Below are positions 45,291 to 64,000 of a stretch of 64,000 bases of DNA, piece by piece. The notes under the pieces are model-generated. The model was not told the origin of the DNA and made no database searches. It saw only the letters and a list, made by a program, of their open reading frames with translations. Source of the stretch: Arthrobacter sp. JZ12 (GTDB lineage: Bacteria; Actinomycetota; Actinomycetes; Actinomycetales; Micrococcaceae). The position numbers and the translations under genes were made by a program. The stretch is taken from assembly GCF_035189165.1 (NCBI RefSeq), contig NZ_CP045246.1, positions 2,976,001 through 3,040,000 of the forward strand, given 5' to 3'. Each line of letters starts with the position of its first letter. Position 1 is the stretch's first letter.

Positions 45291-46109
45291 ATGGCATTCC
45301 AGGATCCGGAGGATGAGGACTCCCACGTCGGAACACGCGACCTCACCCGGTGGCAGACGCCGGTCGGCAGCTTCCTGGTCGCCTGCGTCCGGCAACTGGC
45401 AAAGTGGATCGGTCACCGCTGGGCACTGCTGGCTCTGCTTGTGGTGGGCATCGGCGGCGCCGTCGCGCTTACTGTCGCTTCGGCCGAGGTCTACGAAGCG
45501 GTAGCGGACCGGGACGGCATTGCCTCGCTCGACCAGCCCGCGCTGGATGCAGCAATCGACGTCCGGTCACCCTGGCTCAACGGGGCGGCGACAGCGTTCA
45601 CGCATCTCGGCGGTCCGGTCGGCATGCCCGTGCTCGCAGGGACAGTAACGCTCGCGCTCACCCTTGTGCGGCGGTCCTTCACACCGCTCATCCTGATGGG
45701 CGTGGGCGCAGCGGGATCACTGCTGATGACCGTCCTCGGCAAGGACGCCATCGGCCGACTCCGGCCTGACACCGACTTCGCCATTCCTCCCTTCGAGCTG
45801 TCGCCGTCATTCCCCAGCGGTCACACGCTCAACGCGGTGGTTCTCTCAGGGATCGTCGCGTACCTTCTGATGCTTCGTCAGCGGCGCAAGCGAACCCGAG
45901 CGCTCACCATCACGGTCGCCGTGGTCTTCGCCTTCGTCATGGGCCTCACCCGCGTCTATTTGGGGCACCACTGGCTAACAGACGTGGCGGTGGCGTGGAC
46001 ACTCGGGCTGGCGTGGCTCGCCCTCGTGATTACCGCGCACCGTCTGCTGCTCACCTTCCGGAACCACCGGCGCAACCGTCCAGGCGCTCAACCGGGTGGA
46101 ATTAGCTGA
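45291..46109 (+). CDS. PAP2-family phosphatase
   Basis: A 272-residue membrane protein with the phosphatidic acid phosphatase type 2 motifs KDAIGRLRP (motif 1), PSFPSGHTLN (motif 2, catalytic His) and TRVYLGHHWLTD (motif 3, nucleophile-type His). Several helices surround them, and the active site faces outside. Probably dephosphorylates lipid phosphates or undecaprenyl diphosphate. The ATG has TATCGT (45279-45284) 6 bases upstream. The 3' end overlaps the convergent TPP-enzyme gene by 8 bases. Confidence 0.9.
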   Translation: MAFQDPEDEDSHVGTRDLTRWQTPVGSFLVACVRQLAKWIGHRWALLALLVVGIGGAVALTVASAEVYEAVADRDGIASLDQPALDAAIDVRSPWLNGAATAFTHLGGPVGMPVLAGTVTLALTLVRRSFTPLILMGVGAAGSLLMTVLGKDAIGRLRPDTDFAIPPFELSPSFPSGHTLNAVVLSGIVAYLLMLRQRRKRTRALTITVAVVFAFVMGLTRVYLGHHWLTDVAVAWTLGLAWLALVITAHRLLLTFRNHRRNRPGAQPGGIS

Positions 46110-47874
46110 GTTCCTCCTCGAGCCTGAGGTACTCACGGAGAAGTTCCAGCGCGTGCGCGTTCCCCTCCGAAGCGAGGCCCTCCTCCATGGACTCCGCGAG
46201 CGACTTACCCGCAGGGAACGGCGGCAGGAGGGGAACGTCCGGGTCGGTGACGATGTCCAGCACAAATGGCCGGTCGGCGGCGAGCGCCCGCTCCCATGCC
46301 GGTCCAACGTCGTCGGGCGTCTCCACCCGCAGACCGTCCAGGCCCAGCAGCTTCGCGTAGCCGGCGTAATCCACATCGGGAAGGGCCTGGCTATCAGCGA
46401 ATCGGGGCTCGGCTTCGGTCTCGCGCTGTTCCCAGGTCACCTCGGCGAGATCGCGGTTGTTGAGGATGCAGATTGCGAAAACCGGGTTGGCCCAGGACCG
46501 CCACAGCCTGCTGACCGTAATCAGCTCGGCCATCCCGGTCATCTGGAACCCGCCGTCACCGCTGAGCACCACAACCGGCCGCTCGGGCGAGGCCAGCTTC
46601 GCCGCGAGTCCATAGGGCACTCCGCCGCCCATGCTGGCCAGCGTGCTGGAGAGGTGGGCGGGCACGCCGGCCGGCAGGTGCAGCTGGCGGGCGTACCAGT
46701 AGACGCAACTGCCGACGTCGAGCGCCACCTGCGCGTCGGACGGCAGGCGACCATTCAGCTCCCGGACGGCGCGCTCCGGATTTACCGGCTCCGCCGCCAC
46801 CATCGCCCGGGCCTCGCTGAGCCGGCGCCACGAATCCACGTGGCGTTCTACGTCGGAGCGCCAGCCGATGCGTTCGTCGACCAGGGGCAGCAACGCCCGG
46901 AGGGATTCCGCTGCGTCACCGGTGAGCGCAACCTCCACCGGGTAGCGGTTGCCGATCGCCTTGGCGTCGCTGTCTATCTGGATGGCGCGCGCCTGGCCCG
47001 GCGGCGGATAGAACTCCGTCCACGGATCATTCGAGCCCACGATCAGCAGCGTGTCGCAGGAACCCATCGCCCAACCGCTGGCGGTAGTGCCCAGGTGACC
47101 CATGGTCCCAGCCGCCCAGGGCTGCGTCTCGTCGACGTACGGTTTGCCCAGGAGGCTGGTGACGACGGCAGCGCCCAGCTTCTCCGCGAGCGCAGCCACC
47201 TCTTCCTGCGCGTTCCGCGCACCCTGCCCGACCAGCAGCGCCAGCTTTGATCCGGCGTTAAGGACCGCAGCGGCGTCGTGCAGGTCCTGTTCCCGGGGCA
47301 TTACGGTTCCCGGGCTCCAAAGGGGCGCGGAAGGAACGACGCCGTGTTCGTGCCCGGGCTCGGTTGCCGGCTCCTGCTGCACATCGTGCGGAAGGATTAC
47401 GACGGCGGGCGACCGGGTGGCGAGGGCCGCCTTGAAGGCGCGGTCCAGCACCATGGGAGCCTGCTCGGGGCTGTTCACCTGCTGCCGGAACTCAGCCGCC
47501 ACGTCCTTGAACAAGCTCTGCAGGTCGATCTCCTGCTGGTACGCCGATCCCAGGACCGTCTGGCTCTGTTGGCCGACCAGGGCCACCACGGGGACGCTGT
47601 CCATCCGTGCGTCGTATAGCCCGTTGAGCAGGTGGACGGCGCCGGGTCCCTGCGTGGACAGCACAACGCCCACGCCCCCGGTGTACTTGGCGTGGCCCAC
47701 TGCCATGAAGGCCGCGTTCTCCTCGTGGCGCGCCTGGATGAACTCCGGCGCCCCGGCGCGCCGAAGCGCGCCGAGCACCGGGTTGATCCCGTCACCGCTG
47801 TATCCGAAGACCCGGTTGACCCCCCACGAAGTCAACCGCTCGACTATTGCGTCCGCTACCAGCCGGTCCCCCAT
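46102..47874 (-). CDS. Thiamine-diphosphate enzyme, pyruvate oxidase-like
   Basis: A 590-residue ThDP-dependent enzyme of the pyruvate oxidase/acetolactate synthase superfamily. N-terminal PYR domain: GVNRVFGYSGDGINPVLGAL and IQARHEENAAFMAVGHAKYTG (catalytic Glu). Central Rossmann domain: ~200-340. C-terminal PP domain: VLSGDGGFQMTGMAEL to ILNNRD, the GDG...NN diphosphate motif. The start ATG overlaps the upstream baeRF stop (TGATG), so translation is coupled. It has no clear lipid-binding tail as in E. coli PoxB. Substrate is most likely pyruvate, but others are possible. Confidence 0.86.
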   Translation of the reverse strand: MGDRLVADAIVERLTSWGVNRVFGYSGDGINPVLGALRRAGAPEFIQARHEENAAFMAVGHAKYTGGVGVVLSTQGPGAVHLLNGLYDARMDSVPVVALVGQQSQTVLGSAYQQEIDLQSLFKDVAAEFRQQVNSPEQAPMVLDRAFKAALATRSPAVVILPHDVQQEPATEPGHEHGVVPSAPLWSPGTVMPREQDLHDAAAVLNAGSKLALLVGQGARNAQEEVAALAEKLGAAVVTSLLGKPYVDETQPWAAGTMGHLGTTASGWAMGSCDTLLIVGSNDPWTEFYPPPGQARAIQIDSDAKAIGNRYPVEVALTGDAAESLRALLPLVDERIGWRSDVERHVDSWRRLSEARAMVAAEPVNPERAVRELNGRLPSDAQVALDVGSCVYWYARQLHLPAGVPAHLSSTLASMGGGVPYGLAAKLASPERPVVVLSGDGGFQMTGMAELITVSRLWRSWANPVFAICILNNRDLAEVTWEQRETEAEPRFADSQALPDVDYAGYAKLLGLDGLRVETPDDVGPAWERALAADRPFVLDIVTDPDVPLLPPFPAGKSLAESMEEGLASEGNAHALELLREYLRLEEELS

Positions 47875-49013
47875 CAGCCGGCTGTGGGAACGGTGGGGCC
47901 AACGGGCCAGCGCAGCAGCGCCGCCACGGGGCCGCCGTCGAGCGCGCCCGAGGGGAACAGCGCCACCTCTGCATCGGTCAGCACGGCTGCCCGCAACAAC
48001 GACGACGGCGCTGGCACCTCCCCCAGTACCGGCGCCCCGGCGGTTTCCCCGTCGACGAAGGCGGTCCACGGCTCCGATCCCAATGCCAGCAGACGCTGCC
48101 CGTTCAGGCCCGCTGTCTCCAGCAGGAGCGTGTCAACCTGCGCCTGCTGCAGCGCCGGAACCACCAGGCCGATGCCCTCGGCAGCCTCCGGATTGCTGCG
48201 GCCCTTCTGGTTGTTCAACCGCTCCAGCAACTGCTCCTGCCGCCGTGCGATGCACTCTGCCACCCGTTTCTCGATCTCCTGCGCATAGGCTTCCTTGTCG
48301 GCGCCCTCCGTCCGGCTATGGCTCTCGACGACGCTCAGAATCTCCTTCGACTGTTCACTGAGTTGCTCAGCCACGAGATTCCGCGCCCGAATGTCGCCGG
48401 CCACGATGAGCAACCGCGCCTTGTTGCTGCGGACAACGCGGTCGATCTCGCCGGCGATATCGCCTGCGTTGGCCTTCCAAATGTTCTCCGTCCGGTGCTG
48501 GTAGCGGCCCTGAGACCAGCCGCCGCTCGGAACCTTCTTGATGTTCTCGGTCTCGCCTTCCACGTGCATCATGTCGTCGTCGGACAGGCCGTTGGCGCGT
48601 CGGAGGTGGATCTCGCCGCCGTCCCTTCCCACTTCGGCCACTACATAGGCAAAGTCATCCGGCCGGTGCCAGAGCAGAGGGCACAGGTTCGGAACCTCGT
48701 TGACCGCCGTGAACTCGGGCAGCGCAAGCTCGCCGGGGAGGAATTCGTCGAGCTCCACGGTGCCGTTGGCGACGACGATCAGGCGGGCCACCGGATCAGG
48801 CAAACCCTTCGCGGTTGTGCGCAGCGCGTCGGCAACAGCGCGCCGATCCTCCTTGGACGCTCCAGCCTCCTCCAGAGCGGTGGCGATGTTGTCAGGCCGC
48901 ACATCGTCCGCGTGCAGGGAGTCGACCGTTCCGGTGCTCGCATCGGTGTACACGGTGACCCAGGGGCCGGACTTCCTGTAGAGATCTCCAAGCGCGTGCA
49001 GGGAGCTTGTCAC
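47874..49013 (-). CDS. baeRF/Vms1-like family protein (Rv2629-like)
   Basis: A 379-residue protein of the bacterial/archaeal eRF1-related family, related to mycobacterial Rv2629. Segment VPSGGWSQGRYQHRTENIWKANA is the conserved GGxSQxR(Y/F)Q-like catalytic-loop region comparable to the release-factor or Vms1 loop; LLIVAGDIRARNLVAEQLS and the C-terminal VDTLLLETAG form the L7Ae/Rossmann-like part. A role in ribosome rescue or hibernation is inference. It is the middle of a three-gene operon: start overlaps the upstream acidic ORF stop (GTGA), stop overlaps the TPP-enzyme ATG. Confidence 0.8.
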   Translation of the reverse strand: MTSSLHALGDLYRKSGPWVTVYTDASTGTVDSLHADDVRPDNIATALEEAGASKEDRRAVADALRTTAKGLPDPVARLIVVANGTVELDEFLPGELALPEFTAVNEVPNLCPLLWHRPDDFAYVVAEVGRDGGEIHLRRANGLSDDDMMHVEGETENIKKVPSGGWSQGRYQHRTENIWKANAGDIAGEIDRVVRSNKARLLIVAGDIRARNLVAEQLSEQSKEILSVVESHSRTEGADKEAYAQEIEKRVAECIARRQEQLLERLNNQKGRSNPEAAEGIGLVVPALQQAQVDTLLLETAGLNGQRLLALGSEPWTAFVDGETAGAPVLGEVPAPSSLLRAAVLTDAEVALFPSGALDGGPVAALLRWPVGPTVPTAG

Positions 49014-51066: not shown

Positions 51067-52161
51067 TCAGGGACGCCACTGCGCCACCGACGCCCTCTCG
51101 ATGAAGCGTGTCTCCAGGGTATGCATCTTGCCGCTCGGGGTTGCGCCATCGATCTGGTGCAGAAGTGTTTCGGCTGCGCGGGCACCGAGCTCCAGCATTG
51201 GCTGTTCGATCATGGTCAGGGGCGGGTCCATGACCGCCGCCCAGGAACTATCGTCGAAGCCGATCAAGGAAACGTCCGCGGGATAGCGGAGCCCGCTGGA
51301 CCTTACCGCGCGAAGGGCTCCAGTCATGCCGTCCGTTTCGGTGCAGAAGATTCCGGTGATCCGATTCTCGAGGGCCAGCATCCGGGCGACGGCGGCCGTC
51401 GCGTTTTCTTCCGTTTTTGGTTCGGTCATCACGAGGTCGGCGTCAAACGGGATTCCGGCGTCGTCCAGCGCGTCGAGGTACCCGTTCAACCGCTCTCCAT
51501 CGGTCCACAGGCTCTGCGAAGCGGCCGCGGTGAGGGCGCGCCGCGTCGTGATCGGCTTCTTGACGGCCGGACCCCAGATGAACCCGATCCGCCGGTGCCC
51601 GCGCTCGATCATGTGGCTGACGGCACGCCTGCTTGCCTCACGGTTGTCGATGACCACGGAGTCGAGAGCCAGGTGCTCCACAGCCCTGTCGACCAGGACA
51701 ACCGGGATCCCGCGTGAAACGGCGTCCTGGATGTGCGCGACTTCTCCGCGAGCCACGGCGGCCGAGGCAATGATCATTCCGTCGACGCGCTTGTCCATGA
51801 GCACGCCCACTGCAACTTTCTCTTCCTCAAGGTCCTCGTGAGTGCTGAGCACAATGGTGTCGAATCCGCGAGAGCGCGAAAAGTCGCTGATGCCACGCGT
51901 AACCCCCGCGAAGAACGGGTTGCCGATATCCGCAACGATGAGGCCGAGGGTGTGGCTGACACCCGTGGACATGCTTCGGGCGAGCGCGTTGGCCCTGTAC
52001 CCCAGCTTTTCTGCAGCCTGAAGTACTCGTTCCCGCAGTTCCGGGCTAACGTACCCGTATCCTCCAAGGGTGCGGGCAGCTGATGCCCGGCCCACACCTG
52101 CTTCAGCGGCAACCTCGGAAATAGTGGGAGGAGCTACGCTGCGGTCGCGTTCTGCAGCCAT
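51067..52161 (-). CDS. LacI-family transcriptional regulator of the fructosamine locus
   Basis: A 364-residue LacI/GalR regulator. The N-terminal helix-turn-helix is PTISEVAAEAGVGRASAARTL with the hinge helix ANALARSM near residue 60. The C-terminal periplasmic-binding-protein fold (HTLGLIVADIGNPFFAGVTRGI to GIFCTETDGMTGALRAVR) would bind the inducer. It is last in the minus-strand group, 46 bases after the FrlD-like kinase gene, and likely acts on the TGGTACCGGTACCA-type palindromes in the divergent control region (54239-54604). The inducer is predicted to be a fructosamine or its phosphate. Confidence 0.88.
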   Translation of the reverse strand: MAAERDRSVAPPTISEVAAEAGVGRASAARTLGGYGYVSPELRERVLQAAEKLGYRANALARSMSTGVSHTLGLIVADIGNPFFAGVTRGISDFSRSRGFDTIVLSTHEDLEEEKVAVGVLMDKRVDGMIIASAAVARGEVAHIQDAVSRGIPVVLVDRAVEHLALDSVVIDNREASRRAVSHMIERGHRRIGFIWGPAVKKPITTRRALTAAASQSLWTDGERLNGYLDALDDAGIPFDADLVMTEPKTEENATAAVARMLALENRITGIFCTETDGMTGALRAVRSSGLRYPADVSLIGFDDSSWAAVMDPPLTMIEQPMLELGARAAETLLHQIDGATPSGKMHTLETRFIERASVAQWRP

Positions 52162-52207
52162 TCAGATCATTTTTCTGTTGACGGATTGGCACACCCGGAT
52201 CAGCATG

Positions 52208-53092
52208 TCACATGCTAACCGACAAGCCGGAATCGGCCGCCCCGTGCCCGAACGCGCCCTCCACCAGGCACTGCTGCGCGGCGAAGTCGGCACCGGCACG
52301 CAGGGCCTCGCGGAGCGAAGCTTCCTGCGGAGGCGCGGTCCTGCTCCATCCCAGACCGAACAGGGTGACTGCGAATGCGGTGAGGAAGGCATCTCCGCAC
52401 CCCATGGTGTCTATGGGGCTCTGTGATGGCTCAAGGGGTGATGCCGGCGCATGGAGGTAGCTTTCTCCGTCAAAAACGATGGCTCCGGAATCTCCGCAGG
52501 TCCCAAGGGCAAGCCCTGCTCCCTGCCGCACCAGCTCGGACAGGAGGTGCTCGGCATCATAGGCCGCAAGGTCGGAGCAGGAGATCAGCGCCAGGTCGAC
52601 CGAGGGACAGACCGCGGCCAGGTAGTCAGCCGTGCGGAATTCCTCTTCGCTTGAAAAGTCGAAACTCACAAGCGGTCCGCTGCGCCGCACCTTGGGTAAC
52701 TCGCGCTCGGACCTGGAATAGACGCTCGAATGAACCAGGTCGAAGCCGGCGACGTATCCCAGCAGGGCTTCGTCCAGTTCCAACGGATCACTGACCGTCA
52801 CACCGCCGCCGTTCCAACCGCCGAACACCCTTTCGCCGTCGACGATACGAATGGTCGAGATCCCGCTCGATCCATCCTTGGTCACCGAGCACGACAGGTC
52901 CACGCCCTCAGCCCGGATGGAATCACGGAGGAAGCGAGCGTGCTCGTCCGATCCGAAGACCCCCAGGTAGGCCGCATCCACACCCAGCTTGCGGGCGAAT
53001 ACCGCGAAGTTGACGCAATTCCCGCCGGGATACACCATTCCCCTATCCAGGTAACGGTCAATGATGTTGTCCCCGAAACCCAAAGCCTTCAT
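52208..53092 (-). CDS. frlD: PfkB-family kinase, fructoselysine 6-kinase (FrlD)-like
   Basis: A 294-residue ribokinase-fold kinase. The N-terminal GFGDNIIDRY and the glycine motif YPGGNCVNFAVFARKLG (residues 21-37) match FrlD-type fructosamine kinases, and the C-terminal IDTMGCGDAFLTAFAV holds catalytic Asp234. It is predicted to phosphorylate the C6 hydroxyl of a fructosamine such as fructoselysine before the deglycase acts. Context: between the LacI regulator and the FrlB-like gene, divergent from a sugar ABC importer. Other PfkB substrates are possible, but the pairing with a FrlB-like deglycase is specific. Confidence 0.85.
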   Translation of the reverse strand: MKALGFGDNIIDRYLDRGMVYPGGNCVNFAVFARKLGVDAAYLGVFGSDEHARFLRDSIRAEGVDLSCSVTKDGSSGISTIRIVDGERVFGGWNGGGVTVSDPLELDEALLGYVAGFDLVHSSVYSRSERELPKVRRSGPLVSFDFSSEEEFRTADYLAAVCPSVDLALISCSDLAAYDAEHLLSELVRQGAGLALGTCGDSGAIVFDGESYLHAPASPLEPSQSPIDTMGCGDAFLTAFAVTLFGLGWSRTAPPQEASLREALRAGADFAAQQCLVEGAFGHGAADSGLSVSM

Positions 53093-53189
53093 GAGCCTGA
53101 CTCCGTTTGGTGCTGCATGTGCTTCATAGCCGCCCTCTGTGCTTGGCCTAAGTGTTTGTGCTGCTCTGACTGATCGATGCGCGTAAGAC

Positions 53190-53219
53190 CGGGCGCCTGC
53201 TTCACGAAACAGGCGCCCG
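53190..53219 (-). terminator. Hairpin between frlB-like and frlD-like genes
   Basis: Perfect 10-base arms (53190-53199 and 53210-53219) with a 10-base loop, 14 bases after the frlB-like stop codon on the minus strand. No T-run. It could reduce readthrough into the kinase and regulator genes, or protect the frlB message end. Confidence 0.65.
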
Positions 53220-53233
53220 ATCGGGGTCGGAAT

Positions 53234-54238
53234 CTAGTACTCGACCACCCGGTAGTAGCGCCTCAGATCGAGCGAGTGGTTGCGCACACGCTCAAGATGC
53301 TTGCTGATGCGGCCGGTAACCGTGTCCAGAACCACCGGCGCCAGCAGGCCCCGGAATTCCTCACTGATGCCCTCAAGGGGGTAGTCGCGGGTATCGAGGA
53401 CGGTGACGTCGTCGGACACGCGCCGTGCGAACTTCTCGACGCGGTCAGTAAGGGCGCGCGTCTCATCCTCCCCCTGGAAGATGATGACGCTGGTGTCCTT
53501 CTCTAGCAGCTCGAGCGAACCGTGGAAGAACTCGGCGCTGTGTACGCGGGTGGTCCGCAACCACTGCATCTCCTCGAGAATGCACATGGAGTACAGGTAG
53601 GTGAAGCCCCACAGGTTTCCGCCGCCCACAAGGAAGTGATAGTCCGTTTGTGCGTGAGATTCCGCGAAGGCGGCAGCCTCCGGCTCTGCCTGCGTTGCGA
53701 CGTCGACCAGCACCTGAGGAAGCTGCGCCAGCTCGTCTGCGAACTTCTCATACCCGGCAAATTCTCCGCGCTCGGAAAGCAGCCTGGTCATGAACAGGAG
53801 CATCTGCATATCGAAGGGCCACGTCTTGGGCTGCGAGATCAGGACGGAATCAGCTGCCTGTGCAATGGGCGAGTCGGGGTATCCCGTGAGCGCAACTGTA
53901 TGAACACCGCGTTCCTTGCAGTACTGGATTGCGCGAAGGCTGTCGTCCGTGGTCCCGGAGACCGAGGCAAAGACGGCGACGGACTTCTCACCGAGCGAGG
54001 CGTCGCCTGATTCGATGAGCTCCGCCGCTATCACTGCCCTCACGGGAAGCGTCGACAGGCGGCGTGCCAGGTGCTCATAAGGCCACATCGCGGCATACGT
54101 TCCACCGGCGCCGATCAGGAAAAGATTGCTCAGTCCATCAGCGGTGATCGTAGTGACTAGTTCCTCGATCTGAGGCCGCAGGGACACTGCGCTGGCGATT
54201 TGGTTGCGGAATGCTGACTCGTCAAAACCGAGCATCAT
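53234..54238 (-). CDS. frlB: SIS-domain fructosamine-6-phosphate deglycase (FrlB)-like
   Basis: A 334-residue double SIS-domain protein of the FrlB/FraB type, which splits fructosamine 6-phosphates into glucose 6-phosphate and the free amine. SIS motifs are NLFLIGAGGTYAAMWP and AVFASVSGTTDDSLRAI (sugar-phosphate loop). Glu223 (in LEEMQW) and His239 (in EFFHG) are 16 residues apart, the same spacing as the catalytic Glu214 and His230 reported for Salmonella FraB (from memory). AAGGAAG precedes the tandem ATGs at 54238 and 54235. First gene of the minus-strand group, divergent from the importer. Confidence 0.86.
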   Translation of the reverse strand: MMLGFDESAFRNQIASAVSLRPQIEELVTTITADGLSNLFLIGAGGTYAAMWPYEHLARRLSTLPVRAVIAAELIESGDASLGEKSVAVFASVSGTTDDSLRAIQYCKERGVHTVALTGYPDSPIAQAADSVLISQPKTWPFDMQMLLFMTRLLSERGEFAGYEKFADELAQLPQVLVDVATQAEPEAAAFAESHAQTDYHFLVGGGNLWGFTYLYSMCILEEMQWLRTTRVHSAEFFHGSLELLEKDTSVIIFQGEDETRALTDRVEKFARRVSDDVTVLDTRDYPLEGISEEFRGLLAPVVLDTVTGRISKHLERVRNHSLDLRRYYRVVEY

Positions 54239-54282
54239 CTTCCTTTCGGAAAGGGGTGGAGGAGGTGGAATGCCGATCGGAA

Positions 54283-54300
54283 GCTGGTACCGGTATCAGC
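54283..54300. promoter_or_regulatory. Candidate LacI-type operator near frlB
   Basis: GCTGGTACCGGTATCAGC, an 18-base palindrome with one mismatched pair, 45 bases upstream of the frlB-like start. It shares the core TGGTACCGGTA with the operator at 54478-54495, as expected for two sites of one repressor. Confidence 0.62.
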
Positions 54301-54477
54301 AGTGGGACCGATGCTGGCACATCACCTGAGACGCCGTCAAGGGGTGGAGGCGCAGAGTTGCTGAGCAGACGAAGTAGCGGTTTCATCGGCAATAGAGCAC
54401 TTTCTCAGCCTCGACTGCGGCCCGGCTCCGCCAGCCAGAATGACCCAAGCGTCCCCTCAAAGAAAGTTTGAAAAAGG

Positions 54478-54495
54478 TCTGGTACCGGTACCAGA
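54478..54495. promoter_or_regulatory. Candidate LacI-type operator at importer promoter
   Basis: TCTGGTACCGGTACCAGA, an 18-base perfect palindrome ending 7 bases before the -10-like TATAGT. It covers the -35 position, so binding would block RNA polymerase. Confidence 0.68.
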
Positions 54496-54604
54496 AGCTG
54501 GGTATAGTCATCGAAATCACGCAGTACCTCTCACAATCCAAAGGCGGATTCGATGACTCACGGATGTGGCTCTGTCGGTCCGCTACTTCACACGAAGGAC
54601 CACC

Positions 54605-55924
54605 ATGCAGAGAAGAAATTCCCTGGCGGCAGCTGCGCTCCTGATGGTTTCAGCGCTCGGCCTCAGCGGGTGCGCGGGACAGTCGAGCACCGCGGTTGCG
54701 GACGTTGGGGCCGAGCCCGAGTTCTCCGGAAGCTTGAGCATCCTGACCAAGTTCGCGGGTGAACCGCTGCAGCCCTACTTCGAAGACCTCGCCGCAGAGT
54801 ACAAGGAACTTCATCCCGAGGTGGAGATTGAGCTGATTCAGGAGACGGATCAGAGCATCAAGGACAAGACCAAGACACTCACTGCATCCGGAGCCCTCCC
54901 CGACATCTACTTCAGCTGGACCGGTGACTGGGCAGAGAACTTCGTCGGCGGAGGGCTTGCCGCTGACCTCACGAATGTCATCGCACCGGGAACGGAATGG
55001 GGCGATACCTTCGGACAGGCCTCTCTGGACGCCTTCAAGTACAACGACAAGTACTACGGGATCCCCCTTTATAACAACGGCAAGTTCATGGGGTACAACA
55101 AGACCGCCTTCGAGGAGGCCGGCGTGGAGGTTCCCACCTCCTTCGAGGAATTGATCGAGAGTTGCCAGCCCCTCCGGGAAGCCGGTTATGAACCAATCGC
55201 CTTTGGCAATAAGGACGGCTGGCCGGGACTGCATTATCTTCAGCAGCTCTTTGCCTACAACGTCCCCGCTGAGGTGCTGCAGGCGGACTTCGCACCGGAA
55301 ACGGCGGAACTCAACCATGAGGGGTACGTGGCCGCGCTGGAGCAGTTCAAGACGCTCGTCGATGAGTGCACGGATAGCGGAGAAGGCACTAACGGGGTTC
55401 TCTACACCACGGCGCAGGAGGCACTAGCCGGAGGATCTGCGGCCATGTACTACCAGGAGATCCTCGAATTCGACACGGTGACCGCCGACGGCAACGCCCT
55501 CACCCCTGAGAATTTTGGCATTTTCAAGCTGCCTGTACCCGCGGGCGCCGAAGGAGATCCGGAGGCGATCGAGGGCTCACCGGAGGGGTATCTCATCAAC
55601 GCGAAGTCGCCCCGGGCGGCCCTTGCGGTCGACTTCATGAAGTTTGTAACCGCTCCTGAGAATGCGGCCACGCTCTCCTCTCCGCCGTACGGCCAGCCCA
55701 GCGCCGTAGTGGGTGCGGTAACGCCGGAGACCTCCAGCGAAGTAGTCCATGCAGGGATTGATCAGGTGAACAACGCCTCACAGGTTGTCGTTTGGCTGGA
55801 TACAGTAACTGTTCCGGAAGTTGCGGATGCCTGGCTCGCCGGCGGAGAAGCCATCATCAGTGGAAGCTCGACACCTGAACAGGTCCTCGAAAGCGTCCGC
55901 AACGCTTCGAATGCGGCGAAGTAG
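54605..55924 (+). CDS. ABC sugar importer, extracellular binding lipoprotein (FrlO-like)
   Basis: A 439-residue solute-binding lipoprotein of the family 1 sugar type. Signal MQRRNSLAAAALLMVSALGL with lipobox LSGC (Cys23). Mature domain: LSILTKFAGEPLQPYFEDLAAEY, DIYFSWTGDWAENFV, IPLYNNGKFMGYNKTAFEEAG and the C-terminal lobe KSPRAALAVDFMKFVTAPENAATLS, the usual two-lobe ligand-binding pattern. Context suggests it binds fructosamines, like Bacillus FrlO. Start at 54605 follows GAAGGACC. First gene of the importer operon, 3 bases before the first permease. Confidence 0.88.
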   Translation: MQRRNSLAAAALLMVSALGLSGCAGQSSTAVADVGAEPEFSGSLSILTKFAGEPLQPYFEDLAAEYKELHPEVEIELIQETDQSIKDKTKTLTASGALPDIYFSWTGDWAENFVGGGLAADLTNVIAPGTEWGDTFGQASLDAFKYNDKYYGIPLYNNGKFMGYNKTAFEEAGVEVPTSFEELIESCQPLREAGYEPIAFGNKDGWPGLHYLQQLFAYNVPAEVLQADFAPETAELNHEGYVAALEQFKTLVDECTDSGEGTNGVLYTTAQEALAGGSAAMYYQEILEFDTVTADGNALTPENFGIFKLPVPAGAEGDPEAIEGSPEGYLINAKSPRAALAVDFMKFVTAPENAATLSSPPYGQPSAVVGAVTPETSSEVVHAGIDQVNNASQVVVWLDTVTVPEVADAWLAGGEAIISGSSTPEQVLESVRNASNAAK

Positions 55925-55927
55925 GCC

Positions 55928-56893
55928 ATGCTGACTGTTGAGGGCACCCGCACCAGACGGGCGCGGGTGCCCGGAAACCCCTCGCCCGTTCAGCAGACGC
56001 CTTCACGCAAATCCGGTTTTCGGAAAGTGCTTGGCTTTACCTGGGTTCTGCCGGCGCTGCTCACCCTCGGAGTGTTTGTTTACCTTCCCCTCGTTCAGAA
56101 CTTCGGGTTCAGCTTCCTCGAGTGGGATATCTACAGCGGCAGTCAGACGTTCGTCGGCGGCGATAACTATGCCAAGCTAATCAACGACCCCATCTTCTGG
56201 AGTGCCCTCGGCAACAACGTTCTTTATGCCGCTGTTTCCATCGTTTTCCAGGTTTGTGCGGCGCTTGTGCTGGCAGCAATCATCGAAAGCGTACGCAGGG
56301 AACGTTGGCGGCGCGCGCTTCGCGCCGTGTACTTCGTCCCCTCCGCCATCTCCCTAACCGTGGCAGGGCTCCTCTTCTACTTCATCTACGAGCCCAACCT
56401 CGGCCTGCTGAACTTCATCTTGAAGAACGTAGGGTTCGGGGCTCTTGCCCAGCCCTGGCTCGGCCAGGAAAGCACGGCAATGATGTCGGTCATCGCGATG
56501 AGTCAGTGGCAAGGCTTCGGCTACTCCACCCTGCTGTTTGCCGTGGCCATCCAACGAATCCCGTCCGAGCTCTACGAGGCTGCCGCAATCGACGGGATCG
56601 GCACCATCCGCCGCTTTTTCACGGTAACGGTCCCGCTGGTGAGGGAAATGACCGGCCTCATGACCATCGTCACCATCTCCGGTGCTTTCCAGGTCTTCAA
56701 CGAGGTGATGGTGATGACCAGCGGCGGCCCCAACAACTCCACCCAGGTCCTCGGGACATGGCTCTACCGCAGCGGATTTGTCCGTAACGACTTCGGCTAC
56801 GCTGCAGCGATTGCCATGGTGATCTTCCTCGTCACTCTCGTCATCGCGCTCGTACAACTCTGGATCACGCACAGGAGAAGAGTGGAATGGTAA
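55928..56893 (+). CDS. ABC sugar importer permease 1 (MalF/UgpA type)
   Basis: A 321-residue inner membrane permease with six hydrophobic helices. The EAA loop, which docks the ATPase, is ELYEAAAIDGIGTIRRFFTVTVPLV. A polar 35-residue N-terminus precedes helix 1 (TWVLPALLTLGVFVYLPLVQN). It is expected to pair with the next gene and with an ATPase encoded elsewhere. Overlaps permease 2 by 7 bases. Confidence 0.92.
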   Translation: MLTVEGTRTRRARVPGNPSPVQQTPSRKSGFRKVLGFTWVLPALLTLGVFVYLPLVQNFGFSFLEWDIYSGSQTFVGGDNYAKLINDPIFWSALGNNVLYAAVSIVFQVCAALVLAAIIESVRRERWRRALRAVYFVPSAISLTVAGLLFYFIYEPNLGLLNFILKNVGFGALAQPWLGQESTAMMSVIAMSQWQGFGYSTLLFAVAIQRIPSELYEAAAIDGIGTIRRFFTVTVPLVREMTGLMTIVTISGAFQVFNEVMVMTSGGPNNSTQVLGTWLYRSGFVRNDFGYAAAIAMVIFLVTLVIALVQLWITHRRRVEW

Positions 56894-57723
56894 CGCGCAT
56901 CTCCTTCCTTGGGAGCATCCTCCGGGTCTTCATGTGGACCTTCCTGCTCGGCCTCGTTGTCGTGGTGGTCTACCCGCTTCTATGGATGGTCCTCAACGGC
57001 TTCAAACAGAATGCCGAGCTGTTCGGGAACCCGTTCGCCCTTCCTATCAGCTGGGAATGGCAGAACTATGCAGACGCCTGGAACCGGGGAGTCAGCAACT
57101 ATCTGATGACCAGCGTCCTCGTGACGGTCACGTCGACGATAGCCACCGTCTTCATCAGCGCCTGGGCTGCCTACGGGCTGACACGCGTCAATCTTCCCTT
57201 CAACAGAGCCGTAGTCACAGTGATTCTGGGCGGGCTGATGTTGGCCCCGGCGGTAGCACTCGTTCCGCTCGTGAAGATGTTCCAAAGCCTGGGTCTCTAC
57301 AACACCTTCTGGGCGTTGCTCATCCTCTACACAGCGTTCCGCATCCCCTTCACCACGTTCCTGATCCGGGCCTACATGATCGATCTTCCGCGAGAAATCG
57401 ACGAAGCGGCCGAAGTGGACGGAGCCTCCCAGTGGACAACGTTCTGGCGCATTATTTTGCCGATGTGCAAGCCGATCCTCGTCTCGACCGTGATCCTGCA
57501 CGTCCTGTTCGCCTGGAACGAGTATCTTTTCGCGATGGTTTTCACCAGCGGGACCGGCGTGCAGACCCTGCCGGTGGGCCTCACTAGTCTCATGAGCAAG
57601 CACGGGACGGACTATCCGGTGGTCTTCGCAGGCATGGTTATCGCGGCAATCCCCGTAGTGCTGCTGTTCTTCCTCGGCCAGCGCTACTTCGTGAAAGGGC
57701 TGGCAGACGGCATTGGAAAGTGA
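56887..57723 (+). CDS. ABC sugar importer permease 2 (MalG/UgpE type)
   Basis: A 278-residue permease of the MalG type. EAA loop: EIDEAAEVDGASQWTTFWRIILPMCKPIL. Helices include FLLGLVVVVVYPLLWMVLNGFK at the N-terminus and VVFAGMVIAAIPVVLLFFLGQRYFVKGLADGIGK at the end, where RYFVKGL is the family C-terminus. AGGAGAAGAG inside the upstream gene serves as ribosome-binding site. Confidence 0.92.
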   Translation: MVTRISFLGSILRVFMWTFLLGLVVVVVYPLLWMVLNGFKQNAELFGNPFALPISWEWQNYADAWNRGVSNYLMTSVLVTVTSTIATVFISAWAAYGLTRVNLPFNRAVVTVILGGLMLAPAVALVPLVKMFQSLGLYNTFWALLILYTAFRIPFTTFLIRAYMIDLPREIDEAAEVDGASQWTTFWRIILPMCKPILVSTVILHVLFAWNEYLFAMVFTSGTGVQTLPVGLTSLMSKHGTDYPVVFAGMVIAAIPVVLLFFLGQRYFVKGLADGIGK

Positions 57724-57724
57724 A

Positions 57725-58594
57725 TTGGGAACGAATCAGCCGGAGCACTCCGTAGCCATACCAACGGAGCGGGTCTTGGGCTCGAACTTCTCCTACCAGC
57801 ATCGACCGTTCGACGTGTTCCTGGACGACATGGCCGCCCTCGGTCGCCGGAAGCTGGAGCTATGGGGAATCGCCCCGCAGTTCCACATCCCGCAACTGGA
57901 TAACGCTGCCATCCGGGCCGTCCGCCGTCAGCTTTCGGATCGGCAGCTCGAAGCCCACTGTGTGACCGTCGAGCAGGTGATGTATCCGGTGAATATCGCC
58001 TCCCCCGTCGACTGGCTGAGAAATGACAGCATTGCTCTGTTCCGCAGGGCAGCGCAGGTGTGTAACGAACTGCAGGCGCCTCTGCTCTTTCTGACCCCCG
58101 GCCGCGGCTTCGAGGATGAGGATCTGCAGCGCGCCTGGCGGCGGTCCGTGGATGCGTTGGGTGAGATTGCTTCGTATGCAGCCACACTCGGCGTGGACTG
58201 TGTGCTCGAGCCGCTGCAGCGGGTCGAATCGAACCTGGTGAACGATTCACAAGCCCTGCGCCGGATGATTGACGACGTCGGCGCTTCCAATCTGGGAGCG
58301 GTACTGGACACTGTTGCCATGGCTGCAGCCGGTGAGACAGTGCAGGATTACGTCAGGAACCTCGATACGCTGATCCGCCACGTCCATCTAATCGACGGAT
58401 GCCCAACCGGGCATCTCGCCTGGGGCGACGGCGACCTCCCTCTCGGAACCTACGTAGCCGAGCTTGAGCGCGCCGGATACGACGGCTACTTCACCTTCGA
58501 ACTCTTCGGTGACGGAACCTATGCCTTCGACCCGCGTCCGGCGCTCGAGCGGTGCCTGAACGCGTTTGACCGGGCCGTCGAACCGAGAACTTAG
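57725..58594 (+). CDS. frlC: Sugar phosphate isomerase/epimerase, FrlC-like
   Basis: A 289-residue xylose isomerase-like TIM barrel. HCVTVEQVMYPVNIASP, VLEPLQRVESNLVNDSQALRRM (metal Glu), VLDTVAMAAAGETV (Asp) and RHVHLIDGCPTGHLAWGDGDL (His) and FTFELFGDGTYA (Glu) give the usual metal ligands. FrlC of E. coli interconverts fructoselysine and psicoselysine; the locus makes that role likely. No ATG is available; TTG at 57725 after GGAAAG is preferred, a TTG at 57713 overlapping the permease is the alternative. Last gene of the importer operon. Confidence 0.78.
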   Translation: MGTNQPEHSVAIPTERVLGSNFSYQHRPFDVFLDDMAALGRRKLELWGIAPQFHIPQLDNAAIRAVRRQLSDRQLEAHCVTVEQVMYPVNIASPVDWLRNDSIALFRRAAQVCNELQAPLLFLTPGRGFEDEDLQRAWRRSVDALGEIASYAATLGVDCVLEPLQRVESNLVNDSQALRRMIDDVGASNLGAVLDTVAMAAAGETVQDYVRNLDTLIRHVHLIDGCPTGHLAWGDGDLPLGTYVAELERAGYDGYFTFELFGDGTYAFDPRPALERCLNAFDRAVEPRT

Positions 58595-60917: not shown

Positions 60918-61793
60918 TTACAGGTACGGCTCCACGAGCGACTCATAGCGGGCCTTCACCGTGGCAAGAACCTCGGCCGCCGGCGAGTTCCAGATCTCCT
61001 GGTTGAAGATCTCCACCTCTACCGGGCCGTCATAGCCCGTGGCTGCGACCCAGCGCGTGATCGTCTCGAAGTCGATGTAACCGTCCCCCATGTAGCCGCG
61101 GGAGAGCAGCGCGTCGGCCGCGATCGGGAGGTTCCAGTCGCACACCTGGTAGGAGGCGATGCGCCCCTCCGCGCCTGCCCGCTGGATGGACGCTTCGAGC
61201 GCGGGATCCCACCACACGTGGAAGGTATCGACGACGACGCCAACCGTCTTCGCGGGGAACGGCGCCGCCAAATCGAGGGCCTGGCCGAGCGTGGACAGCA
61301 CGGCGCGATCGGCCGCGTACATCGGGTGCAGCGGCTCGAGCACGAGCCGGACATCGTGTTCCTGCGCCACGGGCACCAGCTCGCCGATACGGTCGGCGAC
61401 ACGCTGCCGGGCGGCGGCAACATCCTTGGCCCCCGGTGCGGAAGGATCGACGGCAGGACCTCCGATCAGGGGTCCGGCGGCGGGAAGACCGCCGACCACC
61501 ATGATCAGTTCACGCGTGCCCAGCGTCGCGGCCTCCACGATCGCCTGGGTGTTGTCGGCGAGTGCGGTAGCCTGTCCCTCCTCGTCTGCCGCGGTGAGAA
61601 AGCCTCCCCGGCAGAGGCTGGAGACGCTCAGGCCGGCCTCCGAGATGAGCCGGGCAGCCTTGTCCAGGCCCGCTTCGGCAACACGGTCACGCCAAACGCC
61701 GATGTGCGAGAGCCCGGCGTCCGTGGACAGCGCCACCGCCTCGGCAAGCGTGATGTTCTTGGTGGTCGCGGTGTTCAGCGAGAGCCGGCTCAT
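60918..61793 (-). CDS. Sugar phosphate isomerase/epimerase (xylose isomerase-like TIM barrel)
   Basis: A 291-residue TIM barrel: LSLNTATTKNITLAEAVAL at the start, VRLVLEPLHPMYAADRAVLSTL (metal Glu), GVVVDTFHVWWDPALEA (Asp/His) and VEVEIFNQEIWNSP (late Glu). It is last in an operon with a DUF993 protein and a Gfo/Idh/MocA dehydrogenase; start and upstream stop overlap (ATGA). In related clusters such proteins epimerise, isomerise or dehydrate ketosugars. Ends before a strong palindrome (60836-60891). Confidence 0.88.
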   Translation of the reverse strand: MSRLSLNTATTKNITLAEAVALSTDAGLSHIGVWRDRVAEAGLDKAARLISEAGLSVSSLCRGGFLTAADEEGQATALADNTQAIVEAATLGTRELIMVVGGLPAAGPLIGGPAVDPSAPGAKDVAAARQRVADRIGELVPVAQEHDVRLVLEPLHPMYAADRAVLSTLGQALDLAAPFPAKTVGVVVDTFHVWWDPALEASIQRAGAEGRIASYQVCDWNLPIAADALLSRGYMGDGYIDFETITRWVAATGYDGPVEVEIFNQEIWNSPAAEVLATVKARYESLVEPYL

Positions 61794-63004
61794 GCGCCGA
61801 CTCCGTAGCTTGCGAGCAGCCACTCGAAGCGGTGCGCGGCTACCTCCGGGTCGACCAGCAGGCCGGCCTTGTCCGCCAGCCGGAAGGTGTCAGCAAGGTG
61901 CATCACCGAGCGCCCGGAGTGCAGGCCGCCGACCATCTGGAAGCCGGGCTGGTGCCCGTTCACCCAGGACAGGAACGCGACGCCGGTCTTGTAGTAGAAC
62001 GTGGGCGAGCTGAAGATGTGCTTGCCCAGGTCGCGTGTGGAGTCCAGGATGGCCCGACCGCGGTCGCCGTTGCCGTCGTCGTACGCCTGCAGCGCCGCCG
62101 AAGCGGCCGGGTAGATCGCCGCGAAGATGCCCAGCAGGGCGTCCGAGTAGTGCGTTCCGTCGCCGTGGATGAGTTCGGGGTAATTGAAGTCGTCGCCGGT
62201 GTAGAGGCGGACGCCCTCAGGCAGGGCCGCGCGCAGTGACGTCTCATGCGCGGCGTCGAGGAGGGAGACTTTCACGCCGTCCACCTTGCCGGGCTGGCTG
62301 CGGATGAGGTCCAGGAAGATGCCGGTGGCGGTGTCGACGTCGTCGCTGCCCCAGTAGCCCGCGAGCGCCGGGTCGAACATGGTGCCGAGCCAGTGCAGGA
62401 TCACCGGTTCATCGACCTCGGCCAGGAGGATGCCATAGACGTACTTGTAGTCCGCCGGGCCTTCCGCCACTGCCGCGAGCGCGCGGGAGGCCATCAGGAT
62501 GACCTTCGCGCCGGCGTCGGACACCACCTTGATCTGCTCGCGGTAGGCCTCGACGACGGCGTTCAGGCCGGCACGGCCTGTGGGCAGGGTAGCCAGGTCC
62601 AACTGGTCGGTGCCGGCACCGCAGGCGAGCAGGTCGCGGACGGTCTTGCCGCTGGTGGCCGGGGCGTTGGAACCAACGATGGCGGCAGCTTCAGCTCCCG
62701 AGCGGCGGATCAGTTCCTGCGTGGCCGCCCAGTCCAGGCCCATGCCCCGCTGGGCGGTGTCCATGGCGTCGGCAACGCCGAGACCGTAGGACCACAGTTC
62801 CCGGCGGTAGTTGAGAGTGCGGTCCCAGTCGAGGACGGCGGGGGCGCCAGGGGTGTTGTCGGCGGTCACTTCAGGGATGACGTGCGCTGCGGCGTACGCA
62901 TGGCGTGCCGTGAGCGGCGCAGTCGGCTTGGCCCAGGCGCTGGGTGCCGCGAGCTCATACCGTTCCAGCGAGCCCTGGGCGGTGGGCAGGTAGAGCGAGG
63001 TCAT
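61790..63004 (-). CDS. DUF993 family protein (DHDPS/aldolase-like)
   Basis: A 404-residue protein of the DUF993 family, which resembles dihydrodipicolinate synthase-type class I aldolases but is uncharacterised. Segments include HVIPEVTADNTPGAPAVLDWDRTLNYRRELWSYGLGVADAMDTAQRGMGLDW, KVDGVKVSLLDAAHE (candidate Schiff-base Lys) and LYTGDDFNYPELIHGDG. It overlaps its neighbours by 4 bases on both sides, so the three genes are one operon. A carbon-carbon cleavage step after oxidation of a sugar is inference. Confidence 0.88.
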   Translation of the reverse strand: MTSLYLPTAQGSLERYELAAPSAWAKPTAPLTARHAYAAAHVIPEVTADNTPGAPAVLDWDRTLNYRRELWSYGLGVADAMDTAQRGMGLDWAATQELIRRSGAEAAAIVGSNAPATSGKTVRDLLACGAGTDQLDLATLPTGRAGLNAVVEAYREQIKVVSDAGAKVILMASRALAAVAEGPADYKYVYGILLAEVDEPVILHWLGTMFDPALAGYWGSDDVDTATGIFLDLIRSQPGKVDGVKVSLLDAAHETSLRAALPEGVRLYTGDDFNYPELIHGDGTHYSDALLGIFAAIYPAASAALQAYDDGNGDRGRAILDSTRDLGKHIFSSPTFYYKTGVAFLSWVNGHQPGFQMVGGLHSGRSVMHLADTFRLADKAGLLVDPEVAAHRFEWLLASYGVGA

Positions 63005-64000
63005 AGCGTGATCTCCGGAATGTCAAGGGTGCGGCGCTCGGCGGACGACTGCAGGCCGAGCTCGGCCAGCTGCACGCCGCGGGCTGCGGAGAGCAGACCG
63101 AAGCGGTGCTCGCGCCCGGCAGAAACGTCGCGCAGGAACTCCTCCCACTGCAGCTTGAAGCCGTTGTCCAGCTCTGCATTCGCGGGAACTTCCTGCCACT
63201 GGTCGCGGAACGACTCGGTGACGGGCAGGTCCGGGTTCCAGACGGGCTTGGGAGTGTGTGCGCGCTGCTGGGCAACGCACTTGTTCAGGCCGGCCACAGC
63301 GGAACCGTGGGTGCCGTCGATCTGGAACTCAACCAGCTCGTCGCGGTAGACGCGCACTGCCCACGAGGAGTTGATCTGCGCAAGCACCTGGTCACCGGCA
63401 GGGGTCTCGAGCTCGAAGATGCCGTAAGCGGCGTCGTCGGCCGTTGCCTTGTATTCCTTGCCCTGCTCATCCCAGCGGGTGGGGATGTGGGTGACGGTGT
63501 TGGCGTTGACGCTCTTGACCTTGCCGATGATGCCCTCGAGGACGTAGTTCCAGTGGCAGAACATGTCGGTGGTCATGCCGCCGCCGTCTTCCTTGCGGTA
63601 GTTCCAGGACGGGCGCTGTGCGGGCTGGTGATCGCCTTCGAACACCCAGTAGCCAAACTCGCCGCGCAGGGACAGGATGCGGCCAAAGAAGCCTTCGTCC
63701 ACAAGGCGGCGCAGCTTGACGAGGCCCGGCAGGTAAAGCTTGTCGTGGACGACACCGGCGGTGACGCCGGCTTCACGGGCGATGCGGGCGAGCTCAACGG
63801 CTTCGGCGAGGGTCTCGGCGGTGGGCTTCTCGGTGTAGATGTGCTTGCCGGCGGCCATGGCCTTCTTGAGGGTGGCGGCACGCAGCGAGGTCATGGAGGC
63901 GTCGAAGACGACGTCGACCGTGGGATCGGCGATGATCCCGTCCAGGTCGGTGGTCCAGTGCTCAACCTTGTGCAGCTGGGCCAGGTCGCGGATCTTCGCT
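63001..64000 (-). CDS. Gfo/Idh/MocA-family dehydrogenase, 5' end beyond window
   Basis: The visible 333 residues belong to an NAD(P)-dependent sugar or polyol dehydrogenase. The in-frame sequence beyond 63894 continues WTTDLDGIIADPTVDVVFDAS, so the ATG at 63894 is internal and the gene continues past 64000. AGKHIYTEKPTAETLAEAVEL is the catalytic Lys motif (EKP); DMFCHWNYVLEGIIG is the C-terminal domain H-x-x-Y/D region. First known gene of the operon with DUF993 and the TIM barrel. Confidence 0.92.
   Translation of the reverse strand, partial: AKIRDLAQLHKVEHWTTDLDGIIADPTVDVVFDASMTSLRAATLKKAMAAGKHIYTEKPTAETLAEAVELARIAREAGVTAGVVHDKLYLPGLVKLRRLVDEGFFGRILSLRGEFGYWVFEGDHQPAQRPSWNYRKEDGGGMTTDMFCHWNYVLEGIIGKVKSVNANTVTHIPTRWDEQGKEYKATADDAAYGIFELETPAGDQVLAQINSSWAVRVYRDELVEFQIDGTHGSAVAGLNKCVAQQRAHTPKPVWNPDLPVTESFRDQWQEVPANAELDNGFKLQWEEFLRDVSAGREHRFGLLSAARGVQLAELGLQSSAERRTLDIPEITL

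Follow-up and report, generated by a model that had tools for sequence, protein, structure and literature searches.

Seven intact genes at 51067-58594 of a 64,000-nucleotide stretch of Arthrobacter sp. JZ12 DNA (contig NZ_CP045246.1, positions 2,976,001 to 3,040,000; hereafter the window), whose host genome is a single contig of 3.31 Mb, probably constitute one laterally acquired unit for the catabolism of fructosamines (Amadori compounds), a reading to which we assign a probability of roughly 0.8. The unit would combine ABC import, a kinase and a GfrF-type SIS-domain deglycase under the control of a LacI-family regulator. The genes lie in two divergent groups, the minus-strand group being transcribed in the order SIS, kinase, LacI and the plus-strand group in the order binding protein, permease, permease, FrlC-like epimerase, and the catalytic residues are intact in all of the enzymes. 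A preliminary description, drawn from the letters of the window, had proposed a fructosamine utilisation locus with an SIS protein, a kinase, a TIM barrel, an ABC importer and a LacI regulator in this divergent arrangement; all seven genes are present, and the proposed function is well supported by family matches, residues and linkage.

In the predicted pathway, the glycated amine would enter unphosphorylated through the binding lipoprotein and the two permeases, with energy from an orphan MsmX/MalK-type ATPase encoded outside the unit. The FrlD-like kinase would then add phosphate at C6 of the fructosamine, and the deglycase, using E223 and H239 as an acid/base pair, would convert the 6-phosphate to glucose 6-phosphate and the free amine. 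The accessory FrlC-family epimerase may interconvert psicosamine (the C3 epimer) and fructosamine, making both usable, while LacI would repress both divergent groups through a 16-bp palindrome before each until released by a pathway intermediate.

Enzymes of the predicted pathway

The E223/H239 pair of the SIS protein, which the preliminary description had pointed out, is present with a spacing of 16 and is conserved at 100% and 96%, respectively, in an alignment of 159 SIS relatives. The best solved relative is PDB 2a3n (281 bits, 43% identity), followed by 8glr, of near-identical sequence; scores were 159 bits for 3eua, which we take to be B. subtilis FrlB, about 130 for 3fkj and 9ou6 (the latter perhaps FraB, to judge by its length) and 51 for GlmS. 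A Citrobacter youngae homologue, 90% identical to 2a3n, ends a gene row of phosphotransferase system (PTS) IIA-IIB-IIC-IID-GfrE-GfrF, and because of this place in a gfr row we identify 2a3n as the Salmonella GfrF. According to the gfr literature, GfrF cleaves fructoselysine 6-phosphate and GfrE glucoselysine 6-phosphate, the two roles appearing swapped in one figure legend (PMC12675984).

SIS trees of 123 and of 41 proteins both group the window protein with GfrF and with proteins from a Priestia frl operon, Collinsella intestinalis, Clostridia, Neobacillus and rhizobia. In the 41-protein tree this GfrF-type clade, with 26 rows on its side of the branch, is split at 100/100 from B. subtilis FrlB, 3fkj, 9ou6, a Ti-plasmid protein and others. 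E. coli FrlB is a long-branch, far outlier in the 123-protein tree, and the window protein reaches 105.5 bits, below the NCBIfam equivalog cut-off of 430 for E. coli FrlB. Given this split and the scores of 281 versus 159 bits, we classify the deglycase by sequence as GfrF type; the label 'FrlB-like' used earlier is loose. The deglycase of the Priestia operon is 48% identical to the window SIS; in the same operon, identity to the E. coli proteins is 57% for the permease (FrlA), 45% for the kinase (FrlD) and 45% for the regulator (FrlR), which links this deglycase type to frl operons. That operon (L099, 6668-11747; Priestia megaterium plasmid NZ_CP071473) resembles the E. coli frl operon in having homologues of FrlC, FrlA, FrlD and FrlR, with a deglycase of the GfrF and not the E. 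coli FrlB type.

One of the outcomes that the preliminary description had named as fatal to it, an aminosugar locus built around an isomerase of the GlmS, NagB or AgaS type, appears very improbable. The SIS protein does show a weak domain-level similarity to GlmS (67 bits), but the matches to GfrF and FrlB far exceed the 51 bits for GlmS itself, and a protein at 2.44 Mb, 641 aa long and bearing two SIS domains, suits the role of ordinary GlmS in this genome; model scores, structure matches and the SIS tree all contradict the aminosugar reading. The GlmS-like protein and one weak match are the only other SIS matches in the whole genome. A glucoselysine pathway was rejected as well, since GfrE (L113, 6918-7982) sits on a different SIS branch and has no counterpart in the cluster. 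Neither a PTS gene nor a second SIS gene was found within the seven-gene cluster, and no fructosamine-3-kinase was found in the same genome.

The best family model for the kinase is fructoselysine 6-kinase (NF007321, 159.9 bits; next model 48). Its GDN (7-9), GGN (23-25) and GCGD (231-234) motifs, which the preliminary description had listed for its FrlD-like kinase, are 96-100% conserved except for the C in an alignment of 82 kinase relatives. The TIM barrel, earlier designated FrlC-like, matches the model for fructoselysine 3-epimerase best (FrlC, NF007360; 113.1 bits, next 58) and has an intact metal site: E166, D199, H225 and E263, at the metal-ligand positions of the fold, are 98-100% conserved among 45 epimerase relatives.

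Three points weigh against our interpretation. The kinase and the epimerase score below the curated E. coli FrlD and FrlC equivalog cut-offs of 247 and 305 bits; the binding protein and its relatives offer no clue to the substrate; and the actinobacterial deglycases form a separate clade on a long stem (0.65-0.72), along which amine specificity may have shifted.

Table 1. Coordinates, strands and supporting evidence for the features of the seven-gene unit in the window
Feature	Position	Strand	Basis
LacI-family regulator, third in the SIS-kinase-LacI group	51067..52161	-	PF00356 and PF00532/PF13377; position kept in relatives
FrlD-like PfkB-family kinase, predicted fructosamine 6-kinase	52208..53092	-	NF007321, PF00294, motifs, 29% identity to E. 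coli FrlD
SIS-domain deglycase, GfrF type, predicted fructosamine-6-phosphate deglycase (E223/H239)	53234..54238	-	PDB 2a3n match, tree, catalytic pair
Palindrome CTGGTACCGGTATCAG, 46-61 nt upstream of the SIS start; predicted LacI operator for the minus-strand genes	54284..54299		
Perfect palindrome CTGGTACCGGTACCAG; predicted LacI operator for the plus-strand transporter and epimerase genes	54479..54494		
CUT1-type solute-binding lipoprotein	54566..55924	+	PF01547/PF13416
ABC permease 1 (CUT1)	55928..56893	+	PF00528; identity to fructosamine-locus permeases
ABC permease 2 (CUT1)	56887..57723	+	PF00528; identity to SIS-linked permeases
FrlC-family TIM-barrel epimerase, predicted fructosamine/psicosamine 3-epimerase (accessory)	57713..58594	+	NF007360 best model; metal-site residues; AlphaFold model

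Substrate range and the role of the epimerase

The GfrF-type deglycase leads us to favour epsilon-fructoselysine, or a similar side-chain Amadori compound, as the likely substrate of the window unit. The same pathway could instead serve alpha-glycated amino acids such as fructosevaline, fructose-asparagine or deoxyfructosyl-glutamine, which we consider rather unlikely. In favour of this reading, soil and decaying plant matter commonly contain alpha-Amadori compounds. B. subtilis frl, likewise equipped with an ABC importer of type I, shows a preference for alpha-glycated amino acids, on which its FrlB and FrlD act (PMC12632257). The substrate of FraB is an alpha conjugate, that of Salmonella FrlB fructoselysine (PMC9609667), and fraB mutants are reported to be poisoned by their substrate (PMC4941530). 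The window deglycase, however, lies across the 100/100 split from B. subtilis FrlB, and six loci (L139, L161, L172, L191, L094 and L105) carry one deglycase of each type, from the GfrF side and from the FrlB side, which suggests that the two types differ in substrate. We entertain, tentatively and at distinctly less than even odds, a broader scheme: the deep division of SIS proteins into GfrF and FrlB/FraB types would correspond to epsilon and alpha Amadori compounds, the actinobacterial unit would be a laterally spread GfrF-type kinase/ABC system with its own LacI operator, and the FrlC-family epimerase would be a plug-in widening use to psicosamines.

Two SIS deglycases of different branches stand close together in L035 (11659-13912), L082 (9009-16169), L094 (2134-4955) and L105 (8848-14204), and such two-SIS actinobacterial loci sometimes add a second kinase, as if one locus handled two Amadori classes.

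It is quite unlikely, in our estimate, that the true nutrient is a related sugar-amine conjugate, opine-like or a sugar-peptide, degraded by the same kinase and deglycase chemistry. Such a conjugate would fit the long stem of the actinobacterial deglycase clade and the existence of a Ti-plasmid locus with a similar layout of SIS, kinase, LacI and ABC genes; yet the Ti deglycase falls outside the GfrF-type clade, and the active-site motifs and the FrlC, FrlD and GfrF assignments of the window proteins all indicate fructosamine chemistry. The Ti-plasmid locus itself (L104, 6962-14044; NC_002377) encodes, besides its SIS protein, a fructoselysine 6-kinase, a peptidase, a polyamine-type ABC importer and LacI, and possibly serves opine or deoxyfructosyl-glutamine catabolism.

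A psicosamine step is suggested by the membership of the TIM barrel in the FrlC family and by its metal site. We regard as doubtful the alternative that the enzyme has nothing to do with psicosamines and either acts on a free ketose, as a D-psicose/D-tagatose 3-epimerase would, or is a passenger. The AlphaFold model (predicted local distance difference test score 91.5) does find its closest folds in D-tagatose and D-psicose 3-epimerases, and the gene, present in 22 of 37 examined relatives of the window cluster, is absent from the other 15, for which reason we call it accessory. But FrlC, and not a psicose epimerase, is the best model here, and the six fructosamine-locus epimerases that were tested likewise all match FrlC best. 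Within the genus, for which 38 genomes were compared, an epimerase occurs in three of the 12 genomes that carry the SIS gene and in none that lacks the cluster, and FrlC-family epimerases recur in fructosamine loci of the ABC, PTS, amino-acid-ABC and permease types, a distribution that argues against this alternative. A second FrlC-like epimerase, 59% identical to that of the window, lies outside the cluster in the closest relative (G031:C55:1518-2333).

Importer, operators and lateral origin

The ABC sugar importer and the LacI regulator of the preliminary description were borne out by domain matches, the importer consisting of a CUT1 binding protein and two permeases. The binding protein reading frame opens at a GTG at 54566, the ATG at 54605 being the likelier start in view of the signal peptide and lipobox (LSGC) that follow; its nearest solved relative is 3zkk, a xylo-oligosaccharide-binding protein. 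To compare SIS-linked with unlinked CUT1 permeases of the same stretches in Bacillota and rhizobia, a distance cut-off was applied, inside which one unlinked pair falls (L055, 29-30%) and which, in L057 and L058, just misses the second permease belonging to the cluster. Permease 1 shares 45-62% identity with the permeases that fructosamine loci of other phyla encode and 27-30% with unlinked ones; for permease 2 the figures are 38-66% with SIS-linked permeases of other phyla and 26-32% with unlinked ones. The linkage of the importer to the SIS and kinase genes is also conserved in relatives.

No ATPase gene was found in the seven-gene unit. The genome carries two OB_MalK ATPases, one directly after its own permeases (L215) and one alone (L214), beside otsA- and otsB-like genes that were judged as such by eye from sequence. 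This orphan is probably a shared ATPase, the part played in B. subtilis by MsmX (PMC12632257), and may energise the importer.

The divergent region contains two 16-bp palindromes (CTGRTACCGGTAYCAG), one before each gene group, which the preliminary description did not mention. With one mismatch allowed, their 14-base core has no further match in the window and none in 100 shuffles. At least one such palindrome precedes the SIS gene, the binding protein gene or both in 35 of the 37 cluster relatives, and in the colinear cluster of G014 the palindromes stay before these same two genes. Throughout the genus, two palindromes lie inside the cluster in every one of the 12 cluster genomes, while 24 of the 26 other genomes have none. 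Since they are tied to the cluster genus-wide and nearly absent elsewhere, there is strong evidence that the palindromes are local LacI operators, as predicted here. Three stray palindromes (G002, G018 and G037) fall in unrelated open reading frames; further LacI targets were considered and rejected, as the strays have no linked gene of this kind and their number is near chance expectation. A simple consensus found no sigma-70-like promoter in the divergent region, whose sole terminator-like match is the operator palindrome itself, and no riboswitch or other Rfam RNA was found over 49-60 kb of the window. In G002 the cluster looks degraded (L029, 9579-9956): the kinase matches partly and no adjacent LacI gene was found, with both operators kept.

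The metallo-beta-lactamase (MBL)-fold and VOC genes that flank the unit in the window adjoin each other in congener G036, where the ends of the matches are about 50 bp apart, and an AlkB-like gene directly follows the MBL gene in G012, G035 and G037. The G+C content of the unit is 59-62% over most of its length, against 64-69% in its surroundings. The window SIS protein shares 70-82% identity with its relatives in other families (82% with that of G555, about 76% with Streptomyces proteins) and 62-66% with those of congeners, G031 excepted (90%). This empty site, the lower G+C content and the greater closeness of the SIS protein to other families than to most congeners indicate that the unit was acquired laterally as a block, with the limits 51067-58594 first proposed for it. 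The MBL-fold hydrolase and the VOC protein were dismissed as conserved partners, since only the window and G031 have them beside the cluster, and in G036, which has no cluster, the two genes are neighbours.

Distribution and related loci

The full seven-gene cluster occurs in the same order in Nonomuraea gerenzanensis, Streptomyces huasconensis and S. viridiviolaceus, with SIS proteins 70-78% identical to that of the window, and the same seven genes, colinear or divergent, are found in other actinobacterial families. In the Streptomyces, Nonomuraea and other actinobacterial copies (L182, L187, L100 and L083-L090), genes, order and operators are the same and only sequence divergence sets them apart from the window; Streptomyces loci L185, L186 and L188 have no detectable epimerase. 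In G014 and G120 both gene groups form one colinear run.

More distantly, the Mesorhizobium gene row reads LacI, SIS, binding protein, two permeases, epimerase and PfkB kinase. This plasmid locus of Mesorhizobium sp. B1-1-8 (L101), of which we know of no characterisation, shares the gene set of the window, with identities of 44% for SIS, 52% for the binding protein, 62% and 66% for the permeases and 51% for the epimerase; it differs in being one colinear run, in its kinase branch and in an extra flavin adenine dinucleotide (FAD) oxidoreductase. Such FAD-dependent oxidoreductases lie near the rhizobial SIS/kinase loci (L101, 14930-16348; L102, 14410-15690); their substrate may be the amine set free by the pathway, or else the Amadori compound. 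Neobacillus and Bacillus loci have a binding protein, two permeases, SIS and kinase with an FrlC-like gene and GntR; a Virgibacillus locus has ABC, FrlC-like and SIS genes, no kinase being seen on its short contig; and a Klebsiella plasmid locus has LacI, SIS, PfkB, an amino-acid ABC transporter and a TIM barrel. The preliminary description had seen in the locus an unusual mixture of the designs known from Bacillus and E. coli. That claim is not supported: ABC importer, SIS protein and FrlC-family epimerase, nearly always with a kinase, recur together in three phyla, and neither kind of FrlB corresponds to the deglycase. The recurrence of the gene set across phyla points to known chemistry around which importer, regulator and epimerase are, by these comparisons, exchangeable modules.

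Set beside characterised systems, the seven-gene unit shares its deglycase type, and the predicted products glucose 6-phosphate and amine, with the gfr operon (gfrABCDEF) of Salmonella and other Enterobacteriaceae, in which a mannose-type PTS imports and phosphorylates and GfrE is present, whereas the unit has an ABC importer with a kinase, LacI and no GfrE. With E. coli K-12 frlABCD-frlR it has FrlC-, FrlD- and FrlB-like enzymes in common (27, 29 and 26% identity); E. coli, however, relies on a single permease, FrlA, and on the regulator FrlR in place of LacI. The B. subtilis repressor, also named FrlR, is of the GntR type, unlike the LacI regulator of the window. The B. subtilis frlBONMD-frlP genes resemble the unit in pairing an ABC importer of type I, made up of a binding protein and two permeases, with a kinase and an SIS deglycase, but this deglycase stands on the opposite side of the SIS tree, no epimerase is named in the operon, and an ATPase, FrlP, is encoded downstream (PMC12632257).

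No publication on an actinobacterial kinase-deglycase locus was found, in a search thin on subscription papers that limits any judgement of priority. Amadori compounds are abundant in soil and heated food, and to our knowledge most of the kinase-deglycase routes described so far belong to Bacillus, gut Enterobacteriaceae or gut Firmicutes. An actinobacterial unit that is both widespread and mobile would offer a compact system of kinase, deglycase, epimerase and LacI sensor in which to study alpha versus epsilon specificity and the role of the FrlC epimerase, and from which to build Amadori sensors or deglycation enzymes.

Two further features lie near the unit in the window, both on the minus strand. 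At 60918-63894, genes for a TIM-barrel protein (PF01261), a DUF993 protein and a Gfo/Idh/MocA oxidoreductase are tightly spaced and probably co-transcribed, resembling an uncharacterised catabolic operon for a sugar or polyol. At 47874-49013, a gene for a bacterial archaeo-eukaryotic release factor family 2 protein (PF18844) adjoins that of a thiamine pyrophosphate-dependent enzyme (46102-48069).

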